In this document: piece after piece, positions 3,313-58,957 of the stretch
How the letters are laid out: the number at the start of each line of letters is the position of its first letter
Numbering within the stretch: the first letter of the stretch is position 1
IMG/VR virus record: IMGVR_UViG_3300020183_000013
Coordinates: 62,001 to 126,000 of that record
Source: a virus
DNA length: 64,000 nt
Strand: one strand, 5' to 3'
The notes under the pieces: generated by a model
Told to the model about the DNA's origin: nothing
The model's input: the letters and a program-made list of their open reading frames with translations, nothing else
The model's database searches: none
Program-made: the position numbers and the translations under genes

Positions 3313-3588
3313 ATGACAGCACTCGCTCAGACCCCTCAACTGACCAGCAAGGATGGTAATATGATCGTGGACTTCTACCCTATCAAAACTCCTTATGGTG
3401 ATATTTCACAAGAGTGGTATCTGAAAGTTCTGACCTTCAAGGCTGCTGGAAATCAAATGTCTAAGAAGTGTCTGAATCGTATTGAGATGCTTCGGGAGAT
3501 TCGGGAACGTGTTGCTATTGGTTACACTGAGACCCGTGACAATTCTAATCTTCCTCAACTTGCAAACCCTATGTACGGAGCGTGCTGA
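3313..3588 (+). CDS. Hypothetical protein, 91 aa
   Basis: First gene after the promoter at 3283, with a good ribosome-binding sequence (AGGGGA) 7 nt before the ATG. The protein contains DFYPIKTPYGDISQEWYLKV and a basic helical segment (KKCLNRIEMLREIRERV). I do not recognise the family. Confidence 0.75.
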   Translation: MTALAQTPQLTSKDGNMIVDFYPIKTPYGDISQEWYLKVLTFKAAGNQMSKKCLNRIEMLREIRERVAIGYTETRDNSNLPQLANPMYGAC

Positions 3589-3590
3589 TT

Positions 3591-3749
3591 ATGAAAACCT
3601 ACCGCGTTGGGTTCAAATGGAAAGATGGTTCTGAGTATTATGTCGCAATGAAATGCACAGGTACTCCTACTGAAGTTTCTAAGGAACTTCTGGATCAGGA
3701 CAAAACAGGTAATTTAGTTGCTGTCTACGTTAAACCAGTTCACAAATGA
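3591..3749 (+). CDS. Hypothetical protein, 52 aa
   Basis: A short protein beginning MKTYRVGFKWKDGSEYYV with a beta-hairpin-like N terminus, followed by a helix (TEVSKELLDQD). Its stop overlaps the next ATG (ATGA), which supports it as a real coupled gene. The function is unknown. Confidence 0.65.
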   Translation: MKTYRVGFKWKDGSEYYVAMKCTGTPTEVSKELLDQDKTGNLVAVYVKPVHK

Positions 3750-6517: not shown

Positions 6518-6979
6518 ATGATTGACTGGACAGAAAGATTTTCATCCTTGCCTGATGTAGAACAAGATAAACTAGCCCTGTTGCGTGTGATTGAATGCAC
6601 AAATGGTGTCATTCAACACTCCTATCGTAGTGGAGATGATGATACACTGACGGTTGATGAAGTCAGAGACGCTATGAAGTTTTCTATGGGTTGTATGAAA
6701 CGACAGGAGATACCTGTAGGAGATAAGGTTGTTACCTTTGCACCCGAAACAAAAGAACTGATGACTGAAATGAGACGATTGTATATCTCTGGTGCGAAAC
6801 AAAACAATCAAGAAGATTTTAATGAGTTTCTCAAAGGATCTAAAGCAAATCTACTTGCGATAGGTAAAGAACGCATCTTGAAAGCAAGACGACTTGCATT
6901 CAATCATATTGACGAATTACCACCTCATACATTAGACTGGGGACTTGAATACATCTTTAGTTTTGCTGGGTGGGTATGA
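6518..6979 (+). CDS. Hypothetical protein, 153 aa, helical
   Basis: Predicted to be mainly helical, with CTNGVIQHSYRSGDDDTLTV and a longer basic/acidic helix toward the end (NLLAIGKERILKARRLAF). I took the ATG at 6518 over a TTG at 6512. The last base of its stop is the first base of the next ATG. No family is recognised. Confidence 0.7.
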   Translation: MIDWTERFSSLPDVEQDKLALLRVIECTNGVIQHSYRSGDDDTLTVDEVRDAMKFSMGCMKRQEIPVGDKVVTFAPETKELMTEMRRLYISGAKQNNQEDFNEFLKGSKANLLAIGKERILKARRLAFNHIDELPPHTLDWGLEYIFSFAGWV

Positions 6980-10019: not shown

Positions 10020-10088
10020 TATAACGATAATATGATATTAAAATAATAAAAAAACGGCTTTTTAAATCATAGCCTATTATTTTGTTAT

Positions 10089-10103
10089 TGATAATCATTC
10101 TCA
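10089..10103. promoter_or_regulatory. Fur-box-like palindrome
   Basis: TGATAATCATTCTCA matches the 7-1-7 Fur operator form TGATAATNATTATCA at all but one fixed position. No clear promoter is visible immediately beside it. Binding by host Fur is inference. Confidence 0.4.
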
Positions 10104-10143
10104 ATAAAAGGTGTGATGAATACTCTTTTAATACCCTATAATA

Positions 10144-10178
10144 CCCTTAGATATCTTATAAACCCTTAGATATCTTAT
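10144..10178. repeat. Direct repeat, 16 bp twice
   Basis: CCCTTAGATATCTTAT occurs at 10144-10159 and again at 10163-10178. It contains the palindrome AAGATATCTT in variant form and sits among several ATACCCT and TATAATACC words. It may add to an origin or regulatory region. Confidence 0.7.
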
Positions 10179-10276
10179 GTTAATACCTTATAATACCCTT
10201 ATAAACCCTTCGGATCCTTGTGATCTTACACGTCGGCAGCTTAGCACAAGGTCTCTGAGTTGTCAAGGGACGCGCA

Positions 10277-10633
10277 CGAGATTCGCAGAGACGCACTAGA
10301 TTCGCACACACAAGACACTTCGAGATTCGCATAGGTCTCATAGTTACTTCGAGATTCGCACAATACCTTATAATCAAACTAGATTCACATCATATCATTA
10401 TATCGTTATATCATACTAGATTCACATAAGTTCTCGTAATCATTTCGAGATTCGCATCAATCACATAAACACTTCGAGATATCATCATATCATCATATCA
10501 TCATATACTAGATTCATTTCGAGATTCACACAATACATCTAGATTCTTACTAGATTCGCATATATACTGTCAAGGGTCTCGTGAACACTTCGAGATTCGC
10601 ACACAATAACTTGACACACCTTCTAGATTCACG
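10277..10633. repeat. Dispersed repeat array, core (C/T)(G/T)AGATTC(G/A)CA
   Basis: About 14 copies, all in the same orientation, start at 10277, 10296, 10321, 10350, 10379, 10416, 10446, 10475 (degenerate), 10508, 10520, 10539, 10550, 10591 and 10623. Two subtypes alternate: CGAGATTCGCA, often preceded by ACTT, and CTAGATTCACA. Spacing is irregular, mostly 11 to 41 bp. The last copy lies inside the spacer of the promoter at 10611. Confidence 0.85.
10481..10504. repeat. Three tandem copies of ATCATCAT
   Basis: A perfect 8-bp unit repeated three times inside the repeat array. It may be slippage-derived. It adds to the low-melting character of the region. Confidence 0.8.
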
Positions 10634-10639
10634 TATACT
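10611..10639 (+). promoter_or_regulatory. Consensus sigma70 promoter, TTGACA-N17-TATACT
   Basis: TTGACA at 10611-10616 and TATACT at 10634-10639 are exactly 17 bp apart. The spacer contains the last copy of the repeat (CTAGATTCACG at 10623-10633), so a protein binding the repeats would block or touch RNA polymerase here. It drives the 57-aa gene at 10672. Confidence 0.8.
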
Positions 10640-10671
10640 ATACACATAGTTTTTCAGGAGTTCGAGTTCTT

Positions 10672-10845
10672 ATGTCTAGTTCTTATCTGTCTGCAACAAA
10701 GACTAAGTATCGCATCACGTTAGAGCTAGAGGTGTTTCCAGATATGAATCCTCATCAGATTCAGTGGGAACGTGTACTCGAACTTGAGCCTGCGGAGAAG
10801 GTTAACTCTTATGTCGAAGACCTGAGTACACCTGACCGCTGGTAG
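10672..10845 (+). CDS. Hypothetical protein, 57 aa
   Basis: It has its own strong promoter and a ribosome-binding site (CAGGAG) upstream. The protein contains TKYRITLELEVFPDMNPHQI and ends VNSYVEDLSTPDRW, a pattern I associate with small conserved proteins of T4-like cyanophages. It is followed by an intrinsic terminator, so it is a monocistronic unit, probably very early. Control by the repeat array is likely, and it is the first candidate for a repeat-binding regulator, although I see no DNA-binding motif. Confidence 0.75.
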   Translation: MSSSYLSATKTKYRITLELEVFPDMNPHQIQWERVLELEPAEKVNSYVEDLSTPDRW

Positions 10846-10983: not shown

Positions 10984-11013
10984 TGCAATGTGGTTAATTC
11001 TCTACACAAAACC

Positions 11014-11262
11014 ATGCAAGACTTTTCCAAGAAATTCTACCAAACCCTGATGCTCAATGTTGCAACAATTGCCGCGATTGTGGTGGGAATTGTGACATTT
11101 ATGATTCGCTCCTTCAATGAGAACAATGGGGCAGAAAAGACACGTAAGGTGTTACAAACTGTTCTGCGCTTCGTTGATACCATTGTGGGCAAGCTTCAGG
11201 TTCTGGTGAATACTGATGTGCCAGAAGTAAAAGTGGCACAGAAAACTACCAAAGGGAAGTGA
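11014..11262 (+). CDS. Single-pass membrane protein, 82 aa
   Basis: One hydrophobic segment at about residues 13-31 (MLNVATIAAIVVGIVTFMI) follows a short basic N terminus; the rest is a soluble tail ending EVKVAQKTTKGK. I chose the ATG at 11014 (MQDFSKKFYQTL) rather than upstream alternatives because it is closest after the predicted transcript start. The promoter box of the next gene lies within its last codons. Confidence 0.65.
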   Translation: MQDFSKKFYQTLMLNVATIAAIVVGIVTFMIRSFNENNGAEKTRKVLQTVLRFVDTIVGKLQVLVNTDVPEVKVAQKTTKGK

Positions 11263-11275
11263 ATCCTGGTATATT
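11234..11275 (+). promoter_or_regulatory. Early promoter, TGGCAC box plus TATATT
   Basis: TGGCAC at 11234-11239, inside the end of the upstream gene, lies 30 bp before TATATT at 11270-11275. The -10 is followed by ACATTCGTTC, a word also found after the -10 of the promoters at 12008 and 12328. Confidence 0.6.
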
Positions 11276-11300
11276 ACATTCGTTCGGTTGAAAACTGACT

Positions 11301-11435
11301 ATGTGCGGTCCTGCTTTTGAGTATACTCGGGAAGATTTCCTGAATGATGCTTCTGATGAAGAATGGGTTGAATGGGAACAGAAAGCAGCAGAACTTGAGT
11401 TGACTCTGGATTACTACCTCGCCGAATTTGTCTGA
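11301..11435 (+). CDS. Hypothetical acidic protein, 44 aa
   Basis: It starts MCGPAFEYTREDFLNDASDE and is strongly acidic, with 14 Asp/Glu in 44 residues. It has its own promoter and is coupled to the next gene by TGATG. The function is unknown. Confidence 0.65.
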   Translation: MCGPAFEYTREDFLNDASDEEWVEWEQKAAELELTLDYYLAEFV

Positions 11436-11632
11436 TGGAATTTGTTAACTACGTTCGTTCATTCTATGGCCCTGGTGGTATCTACTCGATGAATGTAACT
11501 GATGCAATGATCATCGACGCCACCATACAGTACTTGACAACTCCTGGCACACGTTGGTGCGATGGTGATAGTTTCGACCGCGAACATGTTCGTGACATTA
11601 TGATCGAACGGTTCGGTCTTGTGCCAACCTGA
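11435..11632 (+). CDS. Hypothetical protein, 65 aa
   Basis: It begins MEFVNYVRSFYGPGGIYSMN, contains a helix (VTDAMIIDATIQYLTTPG) and ends in a basic/acidic helix. A conserved-looking small cyanophage protein of unknown role, second gene of a two-gene transcript. Confidence 0.7.
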   Translation: MEFVNYVRSFYGPGGIYSMNVTDAMIIDATIQYLTTPGTRWCDGDSFDREHVRDIMIERFGLVPT

Positions 11633-11636
11633 GAAC

Positions 11637-11680
11637 TGGCACACGGGGTCGCCACAGACCCCACCCCCTGACCCTATACT
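11637..11680 (+). promoter_or_regulatory. Early promoter, TGGCAC box, hairpin and TATACT
   Basis: TGGCAC at 11637-11642 is 32 bp from TATACT at 11675-11680. A hairpin of GGGGTC (11645-11650) and GACCCC (11657-11662) with the loop GCCACA lies between. The whole module is nearly duplicated at 14521-14564. Confidence 0.65.
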
Positions 11681-11705
11681 GATTCAGTCAACCACACACG
11701 AGATC

Positions 11706-11966
11706 ATGCTCAAGAAAGTATCACCCGAAAAGGCAACTCCATCTCCTGTTGTAGTTAACAAAGGAAAGCATGGATACAACTGCTGGGTGTATTCTAGCAG
11801 GATTCAGAAGAATGGCAACACATACTTTAAGTATACAATTGCCCACACATTCAAGCAAAAGTTTGTATCTAGAGAGGATGCCCTGATGTATGGTTGGGCG
11901 AAAGTTAATGGGCACAAAGTTACAACTTTCGATGTGCCCATGCGCCACAAACCTGTGACAGTCTGA
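11706..11966 (+). CDS. Hypothetical protein, 86 aa
   Basis: A basic protein with a beta-rich core (YNCWVYSSRIQKNGNTYF) followed by a helix (SREDALMYGWAKVNGH), somewhat like small AP2-type DNA-binding folds of phages. That is only a resemblance in strand and helix order. It is a single-gene unit. Confidence 0.65.
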   Translation: MLKKVSPEKATPSPVVVNKGKHGYNCWVYSSRIQKNGNTYFKYTIAHTFKQKFVSREDALMYGWAKVNGHKVTTFDVPMRHKPVTV

Positions 11967-11970
11967 CTAG

Positions 11971-12013
11971 TGGCACAAGACCCCTTGCGGTTCTCCTGAT
12001 TCTGGTTTACATT
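11971..12013 (+). promoter_or_regulatory. Early promoter, TGGCAC box plus TACATT
   Basis: TGGCAC at 11971-11976 is 31 bp from TACATT at 12008-12013. The following ACATTCGTTC is shared with the promoters at 11270 and 12328. A short GACCCCTTGCGGTTCTC stretch lies between. Confidence 0.5.
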
Positions 12014-12040
12014 ACATTCGTTCAAACAAAGGAACACCAA

Positions 12041-12286
12041 ATGCGTCCTGTTTCTGTTCACCCTGAGAAAAGCATTCGGTTCACTGAACACGCTAAGTTC
12101 TGGTGTGAAATGTTGAACAATTATCGCAAATGTTACCCTAAGCATTCGTTTGCTAAAATGGCAGAACATTTCGATCTGAGTGAAACAAATGCCCGCCGAT
12201 ATTACTATGGAATGCATCAAGCAAATCTGGGGTATTTTGGCAATGGTTACAATCAAATCCGCAGGGGTGCCTGTGTGACACTCTGA
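12041..12286 (+). CDS. HTH-like protein, 81 aa
   Basis: Residues 35-60 (SFAKMAEHFDLSETNARRYY) fit a helix-turn-helix pattern: a first helix with an Ala-Glu-His-Phe turn and a recognition helix with Asn-Ala-Arg-Arg. It could be a small DNA-binding regulator of this promoter array. It is a single-gene unit with its own promoter and a good ribosome-binding site (AAAGGAA). Confidence 0.55.
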   Translation: MRPVSVHPEKSIRFTEHAKFWCEMLNNYRKCYPKHSFAKMAEHFDLSETNARRYYYGMHQANLGYFGNGYNQIRRGACVTL

Positions 12287-12290
12287 GAAC

Positions 12291-12333
12291 TGCCACAAGG
12301 GGGGTTGCAATGCTCCCCAATCCGTTCTACATT
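12291..12333 (+). promoter_or_regulatory. Early promoter, TGCCAC box plus TACATT
   Basis: TGCCAC at 12291-12296 is 31 bp from TACATT at 12328-12333. A GGGG...CCCC stem (12299-12304 with 12314-12317) lies between. The -10 and downstream word match the promoter at 12008. Confidence 0.5.
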
Positions 12334-12358
12334 ACATTCGTTCCTGAGACACCAACCG

Positions 12359-12796
12359 ATGACCGTGACTCTGACTGCTTCCTATCGTGAAATGCTGCAC
12401 GAAGATGCAGTTGCTAAGATCGATGAGCTTCTGGAGGAGAACTATGCTCTCGATGATATGCTTGAGTTCATCGATGAGCGTAATGAGACCAACTTCGTTC
12501 TCTTTTATGAAGAGTATGTGCGTGTTGGTGAAGCAATCGGTTATGAAGCAGTAGATGCTCTCATTGATGAAATGGGATGCGTTTCTGACATTGAAGATTG
12601 CGACGAACGTTATCAAGGTTGCTATCAAGATGAGGCAGAGTTTGCAGAATCTTTCTACAATGAAATGGGTTGCAACATCCCTGAAGGAATTGTAGTGGAT
12701 TGGGAAGCAACGTGGGAAACTTCGCTGCATTATGATTACACTTCCTGCAGTGATGGTAGCACCTATCGTTCTTGCCACATCTTCCGCGATTGCTGA
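12359..12796 (+). CDS. ArdA-like antirestriction protein
   Basis: The protein (145 aa) is strongly acidic and follows the order of the ArdA C-terminal region: a helix (AVDALIDEMG), a YQGCYQDEAEFAESFYNE segment matching the Y.G.Y.s..dFA form, then IPEGIVVDWEAT matching IP..l..yiDyea, and a final HIFRDC like the closing (H/Y)VFR of ArdA. ArdA proteins mimic DNA and block type I restriction enzymes. The typical ArdA is about 165 aa; this one lacks part of the N-terminal domain. It has its own promoter and terminator. Confidence 0.6.
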   Translation: MTVTLTASYREMLHEDAVAKIDELLEENYALDDMLEFIDERNETNFVLFYEEYVRVGEAIGYEAVDALIDEMGCVSDIEDCDERYQGCYQDEAEFAESFYNEMGCNIPEGIVVDWEATWETSLHYDYTSCSDGSTYRSCHIFRDC

Positions 12797-12803
12797 TAAG
12801 AAT

Positions 12804-12830
12804 GGGGGGATTAATTCCCTCCCTTTTTTT
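12804..12830 (+). terminator. Intrinsic terminator
   Basis: GGGGGGA and TCCCTCC pair around the loop TTAAT, with one G-T pair, followed by seven T. It ends the transcript of the ArdA-like gene. Confidence 0.9.
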
Positions 12831-12870
12831 ATACTTTTATTTTAAATATTTTTTAGCAGGGGCGGTGGCG

Positions 12871-12975
12871 ATGGTTTTCGTCTTAGAGGCTACCCCGCCT
12901 CTCATCCGATTGTCCCCATATTATAAGGCAGCCACGGGGGCATTCGTGGGCAGCCAGTGCCACTTCCCGAACTGA
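12871..12975 (+). CDS. Possible 34-aa peptide
   Basis: A short frame after a purine-rich stretch (GGGGCGGTGGCG) beginning MVFVLEATPPLIRLSPYYKA. It lies in the GC-rich 190 bp between a terminator and the next promoter, which otherwise hold no gene. It may be chance. Confidence 0.25.
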   Translation: MVFVLEATPPLIRLSPYYKAATGAFVGSQCHFPN

Positions 12976-13014
12976 CCACGACCCATTGCGTTGGGTGCTG
13001 ATCCGTGCCATACT
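12973..13014 (+). promoter_or_regulatory. Early promoter, TGACCA box plus CATACT
   Basis: TGACCA at 12973-12978 is 30 bp from CATACT at 13009-13014, in the context TGATCCGTGCCATACT that recurs at 13965 and 15828. The predicted start of transcription falls at or beside the ATG at 13021, which suggests a leaderless transcript. Confidence 0.5.
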
Positions 13015-13020
13015 AACCGT

Positions 13021-13932
13021 ATGCAAAACAAACACCTCGAACACCCCGAAGATACCATCCTCACGGGTGACCTTTCTGTTCTTGATTGGTTTACTGCTGC
13101 AGGATTCCTGAGTGTAAAGATTGATGGTGCCCCTGCAATTGTATGGGGTAAGAATCCTGCGAACGGTAAGTTCTTCGTTGGCACCAAAGCTGTGTTCAAC
13201 AAAGTAAAGATTCGTATTGCACACAATTATGAAGAAATTGATGCGTTCTATCAAGGTGAGGTTGCGTCTATTCTTCGTGCTTGTTTTGATTATCTGCCTC
13301 GCATCGATGGTATCATTCAAGGGGATTTTATTGGTTTTGGCGGTAGTGATGAGTATTGCCCCAACACGATTACTTACCAGTTTGGTGAAGTAGTAACTGA
13401 AGAGATCATTGTTGCACCTCACACTTACTACGTTGCAGAAAAGGATCTGCGGGATGCTGTAGCGTATCCGATGAACTTTATCATCACTGATACTCCCTGT
13501 GTGAAGTTTGTGAAACCTGATGTATACATTGCACACGGTCAAGAATCGTTCGCTGATGTAAAAGAAGTCTGTGGATTTGCTCGTCAAATGTCTACTCTTG
13601 CAACGTTTGTAACTGATAAGGAAGCACAGAAGATCAAGCAACAACTGAATGCCTGCATTCGTGCTGGTGAAGAAGTCAACCCTGAGGACTTTGATTGTGA
13701 TGCTAACCTGTTGCGTTTGTGGGCACTGGTGAAGTCGATTAAGGATGATTGTCTGTTCCTTTGTCGTAACAATGGGCCTGCAGCTTATCTGGGTTCTCCT
13801 CATAACGGCTATGAAAGAATTGACTCTGAGGGTTACGTAATGACCAATGAGTTTGGTATGTTCAAACTGGTGAATCGTGAGGTATTCTCTCACGCCAACT
13901 TCACCAACGGTCGATTTCAGTGTGCCACCTAA
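13021..13932 (+). CDS. Nucleotidyltransferase/ligase-like protein
   Basis: The protein (303 aa) shows the motifs of the covalent nucleotidyltransferase superfamily (ATP-dependent ligases and capping enzymes): KIDG at residues 33-36 within VKIDGAPAIVWG (motif I, Lys as the AMP acceptor), a GKFFVGTKAVFNK strand after it, IIQGDFIG near 98-105 (motif III-like), EGYV near 270 (motif IV) and FKLVN near 280 (motif V). A His-Leu-Glu-His-Pro-Glu-Asp sequence at the N terminus recurs in a phage family I recall with a KWDGAPA motif. Activity is unproven; DNA or RNA end joining is the inferred role. A TTG at 12991 is less likely than the ATG chosen. Confidence 0.6.
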   Translation: MQNKHLEHPEDTILTGDLSVLDWFTAAGFLSVKIDGAPAIVWGKNPANGKFFVGTKAVFNKVKIRIAHNYEEIDAFYQGEVASILRACFDYLPRIDGIIQGDFIGFGGSDEYCPNTITYQFGEVVTEEIIVAPHTYYVAEKDLRDAVAYPMNFIITDTPCVKFVKPDVYIAHGQESFADVKEVCGFARQMSTLATFVTDKEAQKIKQQLNACIRAGEEVNPEDFDCDANLLRLWALVKSIKDDCLFLCRNNGPAAYLGSPHNGYERIDSEGYVMTNEFGMFKLVNREVFSHANFTNGRFQCAT

Positions 13933-13937
13933 ACAAG

Positions 13938-13980
13938 TGCCACATCCTCCCTTGTGGAGGTCCTGGATTCGTGCCATACT
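13938..13980 (+). promoter_or_regulatory. Early promoter, TGCCAC box plus CATACT
   Basis: TGCCAC at 13938-13943 is 31 bp from CATACT at 13975-13980. A hairpin (CCTCC at 13946-13950 with GGAGG at 13956-13960) lies between, and the -10 context GATTCGTGCCATACT resembles the promoter at 13009. Confidence 0.55.
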
Positions 13981-14003
13981 ACGTTTGTTGCTGAGGGATT
14001 TCA

Positions 14004-14132
14004 ATGGATTTCGACACTGACTTCTGGGGTGAGATTCAAGATGCCCCTGGTGAAATCTTCGACATTCCAGAGTTCGATGACTCTGATGATTTCAACCTCA
14101 ATGAGTATTTGAACGCTTCCTACGATTACTGA
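14004..14132 (+). CDS. Very acidic small protein, 42 aa
   Basis: It begins MDFDTDFWGEIQDAPGEIFD and has 14 Asp/Glu in 42 residues with no Lys or Arg. It has its own promoter. The charge suggests DNA mimicry or binding to a basic partner; no family is recognised. Confidence 0.6.
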   Translation: MDFDTDFWGEIQDAPGEIFDIPEFDDSDDFNLNEYLNASYDY

Positions 14133-14136
14133 AACA

Positions 14137-14331
14137 ATGCAATTTCAAGTTACTGCAATCGAGTTTGATTTTGATGATGAGGATCTACATCCTGAGGAGA
14201 AATCTGACATCATCGAGGATACAGTAGGACACATCTGGGAAGCAGATGATGAAGATGATCTCATTGAAGAGATCACTTCGTGGACAGGTTGGTGCATCAA
14301 ATCCATTGATTATCGTCACGTTCTGATCTGA
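14137..14331 (+). CDS. Very acidic small protein, 64 aa
   Basis: It begins MQFQVTAIEFDFDDEDLHPE and continues with clustered Asp/Glu (EADDEDDLIEEITSWTGW). The strand-then-helix pattern is protein-like. It is co-transcribed with its acidic neighbours, 4 bp after the previous stop. The function is unknown. Confidence 0.65.
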   Translation: MQFQVTAIEFDFDDEDLHPEEKSDIIEDTVGHIWEADDEDDLIEEITSWTGWCIKSIDYRHVLI

Positions 14332-14333
14332 TT

Positions 14334-14516
14334 ATGTACCGCACTGAACTTCAAGACGCCTACATCAATCAGGTTCTTGATGATATGGACATCAAAGATG
14401 CAATGGCATTGTTGTTTGATTTTATGGATGCTGACCTTGATAAGTATAGTGAAAAGCAACTGATTGAAGAGATTAGTCACTTTTATCCCGAACTGGTGGA
14501 GGATGTGACAGACTGA
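14334..14516 (+). CDS. Acidic helical protein, 60 aa
   Basis: A helical acidic protein (YINQVLDDMDIKDAMALLFD, then ADLDKYSEKQLIEEISHFYP). It directly follows the 64-aa gene and precedes the next promoter module. Unknown function; with its two neighbours it forms a three-gene acidic cluster. Confidence 0.65.
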   Translation: MYRTELQDAYINQVLDDMDIKDAMALLFDFMDADLDKYSEKQLIEEISHFYPELVEDVTD

Positions 14517-14520
14517 CTAG

Positions 14521-14564
14521 TGGCACAAGGGGTCGCCACAGACCCCACCCTGACCCCTTATACT
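14521..14564 (+). promoter_or_regulatory. Early promoter, TGGCAC box, hairpin and TATACT
   Basis: TGGCAC at 14521-14526 is 32 bp from TATACT at 14559-14564, with the stem GGGGTC/GACCCC (14529-14534, 14541-14546) between. It is almost identical to the module at 11637-11680. Confidence 0.65.
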
Positions 14565-14587
14565 GATCTCAGTTCAGACAACCCCCG

Positions 14588-14827
14588 ATGATCGTCCAAC
14601 AGATCGGCAGCAACATGACCGAAGTGCAACTTGCCGATGGCACTTGTGTACTGGTCTCCTACACGACCCCCGTTGCTGCCCTTGTGCCTGGGAAGGGATG
14701 GATCCGCACTGCCCACAAGTGGAGCGCCACCACCACCAAGCACATTAACAAGTGGCTTGCCAAGAACTGCGGTGGCGCTGTTCAGACTGTGACACAATGG
14801 GAAGTGGATCAACTGCTCGCATTCTGA
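14588..14827 (+). CDS. Conserved hypothetical protein, 79 aa
   Basis: The sequence has LADGTCVLVSYTTPVAALVP, then a KWSATTTKHINKWL segment. This pattern (a YxTPVA strand followed by S.TT.KHIN.W) recurs in small proteins of cyanobacteria and phages, with no known function. Codon use is GC-rich, unlike the flanking phage genes. Confidence 0.7.
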   Translation: MIVQQIGSNMTEVQLADGTCVLVSYTTPVAALVPGKGWIRTAHKWSATTTKHINKWLAKNCGGAVQTVTQWEVDQLLAF

Positions 14828-14851
14828 CCTTTCCGACCCTGTAGAATCCTT

Positions 14852-15052
14852 ATGATCACCACCACCCGATTCCGCTTGATCCGCACCCCTCGCTTCCTTG
14901 CTCCTCTGTTCTACGCTGCCCTCGCTACCCGCCCCCGTGTCGGTGATGAGGCAGCGGCAGTGAGCATCGGTCCTGCCTACCTTGGCATCTACCGCACCCA
15001 TAACGGGTTTGAGGTTGTCTACGGCATCCTGAACGAACAGGAAGCACTCTGA
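14852..15052 (+). CDS. Hypothetical protein, 66 aa
   Basis: The N terminus is basic and hydrophobic (TTRFRLIRTPRFLAPLFYAA) and the remainder is a small beta pattern (AYLGIYRTHNGFEVVYGI). A TAGAAT at 14842-14847, only 4 bp before the ATG, may be its -10. It is GC-rich like its neighbours. The function is unknown. Confidence 0.6.
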   Translation: MITTTRFRLIRTPRFLAPLFYAALATRPRVGDEAAAVSIGPAYLGIYRTHNGFEVVYGILNEQEAL

Positions 15053-15108
15053 CCAATGGGAACTGCAGCGCCCTAAAGACTGCTTCAACCATCCTACCCC
15101 TTTCTGAA

Positions 15109-15240
15109 ATGACCCGCGACCTGGCTCTGTCCCTGCTCCGTCAAGGCACCAACGGCGACAGCATCCTTAAGATTCTGGAGACCATCGCCAACCCTAGCGA
15201 CGATAGCGCACAACCGACCGCCGAGCCCATCCAGTTCTGA
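15109..15240 (+). CDS. Hypothetical protein, 43 aa
   Basis: It starts MTRDLALSLLRQGTNGDSIL, a short helical motif of the LLRQGxxGxxIL type that I associate with small cyanobacterial and cyanophage proteins. It is GC-rich. A weak upstream box (TGACCA at 15050) is present without a convincing -10. Confidence 0.6.
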   Translation: MTRDLALSLLRQGTNGDSILKILETIANPSDDSAQPTAEPIQF

Positions 15241-15243
15241 CTC

Positions 15244-15286
15244 TGACCACTGGCCCCCTCGGATGATCCGCAGGGGGCCTTATACT
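15244..15286 (+). promoter_or_regulatory. Early promoter, TGACCA box, long hairpin and TATACT
   Basis: TGACCA at 15244-15249 is 31 bp from TATACT at 15281-15286. A strong stem fills the gap: GGCCCCC (15252-15258) pairs with GGGGGCC (15273-15279), with GGAT/ATCC extending inside. The stem ends 1 bp before the -10. Confidence 0.65.
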
Positions 15287-15309
15287 AAGGGGACCGAAGC
15301 AACTCACCG

Positions 15310-15828
15310 ATGAACACCGCCACCATCACCACCGCCCAGCAACAATACCTGGATGCCTTCGCCGCTCTGTATGAGGCAGCGGATGCTCTGAACGCCGGTG
15401 ATCCGATGTCCTATGCCCGTTCCCGTGAGATCCACCTTGCCTGCCTGCTGGGCCACACCGTTGCCGATACGTACAGCGGTGCTGATGCCTTCGAAGCGGA
15501 TGGCACCCCTGTAGAGTACAAAAGCACCATCGGCGCTCAGATCTCTGCGACCTACAACGGCATCAGCGTTCAACCGACCTGGGAAGAGCAGGAGGCCTAT
15601 CTGATCGACCATAAGATCGGATGCTACCCCCGCCACTATTACGCCCGCTATGAGGGTGCCCAGGTTGCTGAGGTTTGGGTTCTGGATTCTGATACGGTGC
15701 TCTCCCTGCTGCTCCCTAAGGCAGAACGCCAGTACGCCACCAAGCGCAACGGCAAGGCAAAGGATCCCCGCATCGGCGTCAGCATCTCCGCTGGTGAGAT
15801 CCGCAAACACGCCCGCCGCCTGGTCTGA
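15310..15828 (+). CDS. PD-(D/E)XK nuclease-like protein
   Basis: The protein (172 aa) has a likely nuclease core: a helix with Glu40 and His42 (SREIHLACLLGHTVADTY), then Asp59 in SGADAFEAD, and Glu69-Tyr70-Lys71 in TPVEYKST, which fits D-X(9)-E-X-K. This is the arrangement found in restriction-type nucleases. The C-terminal part is basic (ERQYATKRNGKAKDPR), suitable for DNA contact. Codon use is GC-rich and host-like. A role in host DNA breakdown or exclusion of other phages is inference. It has its own hairpin promoter. Confidence 0.5.
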   Translation: MNTATITTAQQQYLDAFAALYEAADALNAGDPMSYARSREIHLACLLGHTVADTYSGADAFEADGTPVEYKSTIGAQISATYNGISVQPTWEEQEAYLIDHKIGCYPRHYYARYEGAQVAEVWVLDSDTVLSLLLPKAERQYATKRNGKAKDPRIGVSISAGEIRKHARRLV

Positions 15829-15867
15829 TCCGTGCTACAATTCTTTCAGTCCAACCGACACCGACCA

Positions 15868-16053
15868 ATGGCACTCTACAACATCGCATCCGACCGCACG
15901 ACCCGCCAGACCATCTGGGTTAGCACCAACGTTGTGAAGGGTCGCCCCCAGATCAACTCCCACTCCTCCGCTGCTTATGCTCGGGAAGGGTTCGACGGAT
16001 TCACCGCCGCCGAACTGGCAGGACTTCACACCGACTACCGTGGGGTGGGGTGA
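15868..16053 (+). CDS. Hypothetical protein, 61 aa
   Basis: It begins MALYNIASDRTTRQTIWVST and ends in a helix (AAELAGLHTDYRGVG). A TACAAT at 15836-15841 in the context GATCCGTGCTACAAT probably is its -10. It is the last gene of the GC-rich cluster. Unknown function. Confidence 0.6.
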   Translation: MALYNIASDRTTRQTIWVSTNVVKGRPQINSHSSAAYAREGFDGFTAAELAGLHTDYRGVG

Positions 16054-57541: not shown

Positions 57542-58957
57542 ATGTTCAATAACGAGCATCTGCAGGAAAAGTGGGCTCCCCTTCTGAACTATGAGGGTCT
57601 TGATCCTATCAAAGATTCACACAGAAGAGCTGTAACCGCTGTCCTGCTCGAAAACCAAGAGAAATTCCTTAGAGAGGAGCAATCCTTTGCACAGTCAGGT
57701 TCATTCCTGACCGAAGCTCCAACCAACTCTGCTAACGGCACTGGTGCTGGTGGTGGTTTTGGTGGTGGTGCAACCGCTGGCGGTCCTGTAGCAGGTTTCG
57801 ACCCTGTTCTGATCTCTCTGATCCGCCGTGCAATGCCCAACCTGGTCGCATATGACCTGGCTGGCGTTCAACCAATGAACGGTCCTACTGGACTGATTTT
57901 CGCAATGCGTTCACGCTACACCAACCAGTCTGGCGCTGAAGCACTGTTCAACGAAGCAGATACTCGCTTCTCTGCACAGAACGCAACTAACACCCTGACT
58001 CAGGGTAGCGACTACGCTGGTGGTGCTGGTATCGGTACTACCGCTGCTCAGAGCGGAACCAACCCTGGTCTGCTGAATGCTGCAGCTGCAACCCCATACA
58101 CCCTGAGTGGTGGTATGCACACTGGTGACGCTGAGAACCTCGGTTCCAGTGTTGCATTCAACGAGATGGCATTCTCAATCGAGAAAGTCACCGTTACTGC
58201 AAAGTCACGCGCTCTGAAGGCTGAGTACTCACTTGAGCTCGCTCAAGACCTCAAGGCGATTCACGGTCTGAATGCTGAGGCAGAACTTGCCAACATTCTT
58301 TCAACCGAGATCCTCGCTGAAATCAACCGCGAAGTTATCCGTACCATCTATAACGTTGCTGAAGCTGGTGCTCAGGCAAACGTTGCTACTGCTGGTACTT
58401 TTGACCTCGACGTTGATTCAAACGGTCGTTGGTCTGTTGAGAAGTTCAAGGGTCTCCTGTTCCAAATCGAGCGTGATGCTAACGCAATCGCACAAAGAAC
58501 TCGTAGAGGAAAAGGTAACATCATCCTATGCTCCGCTGACGTTGCTTCAGCACTGAGTATGGCTGGTGTTCTTGATTACACCCCTGCACTCAACGCTAAC
58601 CTGAACGTTGATGACACTGGTAACACCTTCGCAGGTACTCTGCTTGGTAAGTTCCGCGTCTACATCGACCCATATGCTGCAAACGTAGATTCTAACCAGT
58701 ATTACGTTGTTGGTTATAAGGGTTCTTCACCTTATGACGCAGGTCTGTTCTATTGCCCATACGTTCCTCTCCAAATGGTTCGTGCCGTTGGCGAGAACAC
58801 CTTCCAGCCAAAAATCGGCTTTAAGACTCGTTATGGCATTGTTGCTAACCCATTCGCTGAAGGCGGTCTCTCCTCTGGAGCTGCTACCTCACTGGGTAAA
58901 CTCAATGCAAGTGCAAACCGTTACTACAGAAGAGTTCTCGTTAAGAACCTTATGTGA
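57542..58957 (+). CDS. 23: Major capsid protein gp23
   Basis: The head subunit (471 aa; T4 gp23 is 521). Typical sections are KWAPLLNYEGLDPIKDSHRR, RRAMPNLVAYDLAGVQPMNG, PTGLIFAMRSRY, AFSIEKVTVTAKSRALKAEY, SLELAQDLKAIHGLNAEAEL, and RRGKGNIILCSADVASAL. A Gly-rich stretch (ANGTGAGGGFGGGATAGGPV) follows the N-terminal leader. A likely gp21 cleavage site lies in the leader around FLTE before APT. The gene is more GC-rich than its neighbours, consistent with very high expression. A terminator follows. Confidence 0.97.
   Translation: MFNNEHLQEKWAPLLNYEGLDPIKDSHRRAVTAVLLENQEKFLREEQSFAQSGSFLTEAPTNSANGTGAGGGFGGGATAGGPVAGFDPVLISLIRRAMPNLVAYDLAGVQPMNGPTGLIFAMRSRYTNQSGAEALFNEADTRFSAQNATNTLTQGSDYAGGAGIGTTAAQSGTNPGLLNAAAATPYTLSGGMHTGDAENLGSSVAFNEMAFSIEKVTVTAKSRALKAEYSLELAQDLKAIHGLNAEAELANILSTEILAEINREVIRTIYNVAEAGAQANVATAGTFDLDVDSNGRWSVEKFKGLLFQIERDANAIAQRTRRGKGNIILCSADVASALSMAGVLDYTPALNANLNVDDTGNTFAGTLLGKFRVYIDPYAANVDSNQYYVVGYKGSSPYDAGLFYCPYVPLQMVRAVGENTFQPKIGFKTRYGIVANPFAEGGLSSGAATSLGKLNASANRYYRRVLVKNLM

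Follow-up and report, generated by a model that had tools for sequence, protein, structure and literature searches.

The described systems closest to the locus analyzed here are multi-site operators and replication origins. In phage lambda, OR and OL are multi-site operators between divergent early promoters, with three dyad sites and a repressor gene, and the oriR of P1 is an iteron origin that has a promoter inside its repeats. The ori2 of V. cholerae is an iteron origin as well, built from 11- and 12-mer RctB sites (PMC6090056), and in most cyanobacteria the DnaA box reads TTTTCCACA (PMC4674748). In T4, oriF (ori-uvsY) is annotated at uvsY (NC_000866). For T4-like cyanophages, no description of the replication start or of first-gene timing was found among open-licence papers, and no paper in the same literature treated a cyanophage together with a replication origin and a DnaA box.

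The locus lies in a window of 64 kb (the whole stretch of DNA that was analyzed) of a 137.6-kb record, whose gene content identifies the phage as a T4-like cyanophage of the Kyanoviridae. Baseplate wedge, terminase and portal families of the T4-like kind are encoded in the window, and relatives of the 57-aa gene next to the array come only from records of Synechococcus, of Prochlorococcus and of marine viruses; where a full lineage is given, it is Kyanoviridae. S-SM2 shows a comparable small-gene order ahead of its baseplate genes; no direct DNA similarity between the window phage and named phages was found, nor was psbA in the record fragment examined. For the genes adjoining the array, the only matches besides weak ones to ArdA and a methylase were to families with no assigned function. 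The ArdA antirestriction match (PF07275, 12305-12796, 21.1 bits, under the 27-bit cut-off) is located 3' of the array and would fit an early operon or host-takeover block. G+C content is 0.45-0.59 in the small-gene block at 11001-16000, 3' of the array, 0.33-0.42 before that block and 0.29-0.40 over most of the remaining window. The elements of the locus are the following.

10089..10103, no strand: Fur-box-like dyad TGATAATCATTCTCA, placed where relatives have DnaA boxes or TTGAGAAT words.
10127..10230, no strand: AT-rich degenerate repeats of the TTAATACCCTTATAAACCCTT type, directly behind P_L; relatives have comparable AT-rich repeats.
10238..10266, minus strand: predicted promoter P_L, TTGACA-17-TAAGCT, with a TG-type extended -10, bordering the array on its left and divergent from P_R.
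10277..10633, plus strand: array of 14 words with consensus C[G/T]AGATTC[G/A]CA and core C[G/T]AGAT, all in the same orientation, at an irregular spacing of 11-41 bp.
10611..10639, plus strand: predicted sigma-70-type promoter P_R, TTGACA-17-TATACT, with the last word (10623-10633) inside its spacer.
10672..10845, plus strand: 57-aa gene (phrog_12516), predicted to be driven by P_R.

The array occupies part of a 652-bp gap (10020-10671) between the upstream small genes and the 57-aa gene. Its C[G/T]AGAT words start at 10277, 10296, 10321, 10350, 10379, 10416, 10446, 10475, 10508, 10520, 10539, 10550, 10591 and 10623, the last one (CTAGATTCACG) having one mismatch. A first-pass annotation of this DNA had described about 14 words in the same orientation, which agrees with the 14 copies of the relaxed core; the two subtypes that it took to alternate are instead CG and CT forms in mixed order. 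The exact form YKAGATTCRCA is present ten times in the window, always on the plus strand and within 10277-10601, whereas shuffled versions of the whole window contain 0.45 on average and never more than 2. A random spread over the genome, named in the first-pass annotation as part of the outcome that would refute its readings, is not what the 137.6-kb record displays, since ten of its 12 copies of AGATTCRCA fall in the array and two elsewhere. Several other identities were discarded: a CRISPR, given words of only 11 bp and irregular gaps, and a coding repeat, given that the spacing does not keep to a three-base frame, as it does in several unrelated viral hits whose period is 15 bp.

Both flanking promoters are predictions, i.e. 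conserved consensus matches. P_R combines a -35 TTGACA (10611-10616) and a -10 TATACT (10634-10639) across 17 bp, so that the position of the last word in the spacer and the spacing itself are as first annotated, whereas the supposedly perfect promoter matches the consensus at 11 of 12 positions. The TATAAT at 10369 and the TATACT at 10563, also pointed out at that stage, are both present, but neither is paired with a detected -35 hexamer. From viral contigs and named phages we gathered 150 distinct regions preceding the 57-aa gene, and compared the promoters in 86 representatives, each 700 bp or longer. A P_R-equivalent sigma-70-type promoter is found near the 57-aa gene in 81 of the 86, and P_L, on the opposite strand, in 66, compared with 4.1 in shuffled sequence. 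Among the loci collected, a contig end lies within 1 kb of the 57-aa gene upstream in 42 of 151 and downstream in 11, as if the region 5' of the gene breaks assemblies or differs between strains.

The distance from the P_L -35 to the ATG is about 130 bp in 55 array-less representatives and 286-541 bp in 7 array-bearing ones (p about 1e-5, a descriptive value, as the sequences are related), hence the array occupies exactly the interval between P_L and P_R. It is located upstream of both inferred start sites and would therefore be transcribed from neither promoter, which argues for a role as DNA; an RNA element was discarded, as there is no Rfam match and the array stands behind neither promoter. 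As for P_L itself, the nearby genes with an assignable strand are on the plus strand and the minus strand behind it has stops in all frames, so that it would probably yield a non-coding RNA.

Conservation of the words was assessed between the window and the relative L054 only, the L062 and L056 alignments being too poor for the repeat. In this pair, words are identical at 100/110 (91%) and linkers at 125/163 (77%; p = 0.003), and by this measure the words are under selection. A word is retained inside the P_R spacer in L051, L052, L054-L057, L062, L248-L251, L255 and L043, the last six of which are divergent homologs (L248-L251, L255, L043) whose arrays consist of CTAGAT-rich or mixed words. 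The cultured phage S-SRM01 has six copies of a variant word, ATCTCGACGAG, in its 240.8 kb. Five lie within 162 bp at the locus, one of these in the spacer of TTGCAT-17-TATAAT, its P_R; two of the five are within a possible small reading frame, where constraint on coding could play a part. The array design, set between the same two predicted promoters, recurs in divergent cyanophage lineages with constant orientation; this recurrence and the divergent P_L at the left edge of the array were both missed in the first-pass annotation, which had proposed a search of other cyanophages and of host genomes. Arrays were indeed present in other cyanophage lineages, but the genome search with a triple-word pattern gave 108 loci, three of them from other cyanobacteria and none titled Synechococcus or Prochlorococcus, and a host-derived repeat was discarded on this basis.

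Array copy number changes, since the closer relative L051 gained a 29-bp unit; it also differs from the window by an 8-bp slippage. These differences favor a selfish or neutral expansion, functionless, in a tolerant non-coding gap, as does the 215-kb relative L250, which expands a different word left of P_L, the 21-bp repeat CTAGATCTTATGAGTCCTGTT (about five copies, 3520-3640). We regard such an expansion as improbable, because words outlast linkers between the window and L054 and arrays of related words recur in divergent lineages, at the same promoter pair and in constant orientation.

What these observations say about function we infer from sequence. They are strong evidence for an element that exerts control as DNA at a conserved promoter of early type, and the explanation that we favor, to which we give about an even chance, is that the array is a multi-site operator, its words being predicted binding sites for one sequence-specific protein of phage or host. 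Such a protein would recognize C[G/T]AGAT plus TC[G/A]CA. Early in infection, host RNA polymerase would fire P_R, and also P_L; as the protein built up, it would occupy the array and, through the word lying in the spacer of P_R, cover the -35/-10 region and turn the operon off, with the upstream copies boosting local concentration or cooperativity, or titrating the protein. Repression appears preferable to activation, as the near-consensus P_R would hardly need an activator. As in lambda OR/OL, the words lie between back-to-back promoters with one site within a promoter, a placement conserved in most array lineages; unlike in lambda, with its three dyad sites, the words number 14 and are direct repeats, in a lytic phage with no repressor gene identified. 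The 57-aa protein was considered as the repressor and discarded, since array-less phages equally have its gene and a search with its model found no PDB structure of matching fold.

Some observations stand against an operator. L070 and L071 have the array and a P_R spacer without a word, the same promoter is regulated without an array in most relatives, and L250 has a second CTAGATT array (6570-6683), directly 5' of another small gene's start codon, at which no promoter was recognized. This second array, together with the many same-orientation copies upstream of a promoter, would rather suit an activator or enhancer array, or a decoy for a host DNA-binding protein; the bound protein would stimulate P_R or be titrated by the phage DNA. 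We think that this is quite unlikely: P_R is near consensus already, an ordinary activator would be badly placed within the -35/-10 spacer, and a host regulon is not evident, the triple-word array having been found in no genome titled Synechococcus or Prochlorococcus. The first-pass annotation had offered either an operator, for a repressor or an anti-silencing protein, or the iterons of an origin; both main readings survive, and the anti-silencing version is without support.

Concerning the second of these, the array would represent iterons, and the intergenic region the Kyanoviridae origin, with DnaA boxes in many lineages and an iteron array here, while transcripts from P_L and P_R would help DNA opening or prime synthesis. 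We hold this reading as a possible but tentative one, clearly behind the operator. As in plasmid and chromid iteron origins such as V. cholerae ori2 and P1 oriR, a short word is directly repeated across an intergenic, non-coding region with an AT-rich flank; relatives have DnaA boxes, a non-coding RNA is predicted nearby from P_L and, as in P1, a promoter lies within the repeats. Unlike in those origins, no initiator gene was recognized among the neighbors of the array, although one of an unfamiliar kind may be present, and the spacing is irregular. The window words alone gave a suggestive helical phasing (R 0.65), but in the pooled array set no phasing at 10.5 bp was found (z 1.2, matched by 12% of random placements).

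The evidence for an origin is indirect and comes from DnaA boxes in the corresponding intergenic region of relatives. At least one TTTTCCACA is present in the upstream region of 26 of 78 array-less and 1 of 8 array-bearing representatives, where shuffles predict 1.5 of 86. Two of the three genome copies in S-SM2 cluster left of P_L, four of four copies in contigs of 24-77 kb fall in the region, and many metagenomic relatives also have clusters beyond P_L. A cluster precedes a P_R-like promoter in Syn9, ACG-2014b, S-RIM2, S-CAM1, P-SSM7 and S-IOM18, phages in which homology of the region rests on layout and on position upstream of the baseplate genes; Syn9, ACG-2014b, S-RIM2, P-SSM7 and S-IOM18 have inverted pairs. 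The clustering resembles cyanobacterial oriC (PMC4674748), from which the cyanophage regions differ in having usually 2-4 boxes and no dnaN or dnaA neighbor seen. The window phage itself has none: TTWTCCACA is absent from its array region, and no DnaA-box cluster is found there.

Where relatives have DnaA boxes or TTGAGAAT words, the window has the Fur-box-like dyad TGATAATCATTCTCA, one mismatch from TGATAATNATTATCA; it is possibly due to chance, as a search at 2 mismatches gave 2 hits with 1.03 expected. The TTGAGAAT words, some in Fur-box-like dyads, occur in 23 of 78 array-less upstream regions, compared with 4.8 of 86 in shuffles.

Other cyanophages also weigh against the origin. TTTTCCACA is missing from the entire genomes of Bellamy and S-B05, and in P-TIM68 and DSL-LC03 the clusters are in other gaps. 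DSL-LC03 (OR003938.1, L406), a cultured cyanophage of 172.8 kb, has an oriC-like cluster in which 7 of its 10 boxes are packed into 460 bp (80123-80579) of a single large gap. P-TIM68 (NC_028955.1, L407) has an inverted DnaA-box pair and promoter-like sites in a 645-bp gap (57651-58295) that precedes CP12 and a gene of the baseplate wedge, its 57-aa gene being located elsewhere. The GC-skew of Syn9 shows no clear switch and is uninformative on this point. The locus is like T4 oriF in belonging to a T4-like phage, in being promoter-associated and in lying near gene 25, but homology of position is ruled out, since 62 kb separate uvsY from gp25 in Syn9. An origin role of the wider region is nevertheless a plausible and serious rival, compatible with the operator, and could coexist with autoregulation of P_R.

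The locus, well delimited and a few hundred bases long, is present in the cultured phages Syn9, S-SM2 and S-SRM01. With two predicted promoters and candidate binding sites of two kinds, it makes the questions of replication start and early timing directly testable. A broader proposal, speculative and on the unlikely side, is that Kyanoviridae share an origin-plus-early-control locus, in which host DnaA would act via TTTTCCACA boxes beside divergent promoters, and that the window lineage swapped these for phage-specific iterons. If true, an iteron array in place of host-initiator sites would free replication onset from host DnaA.
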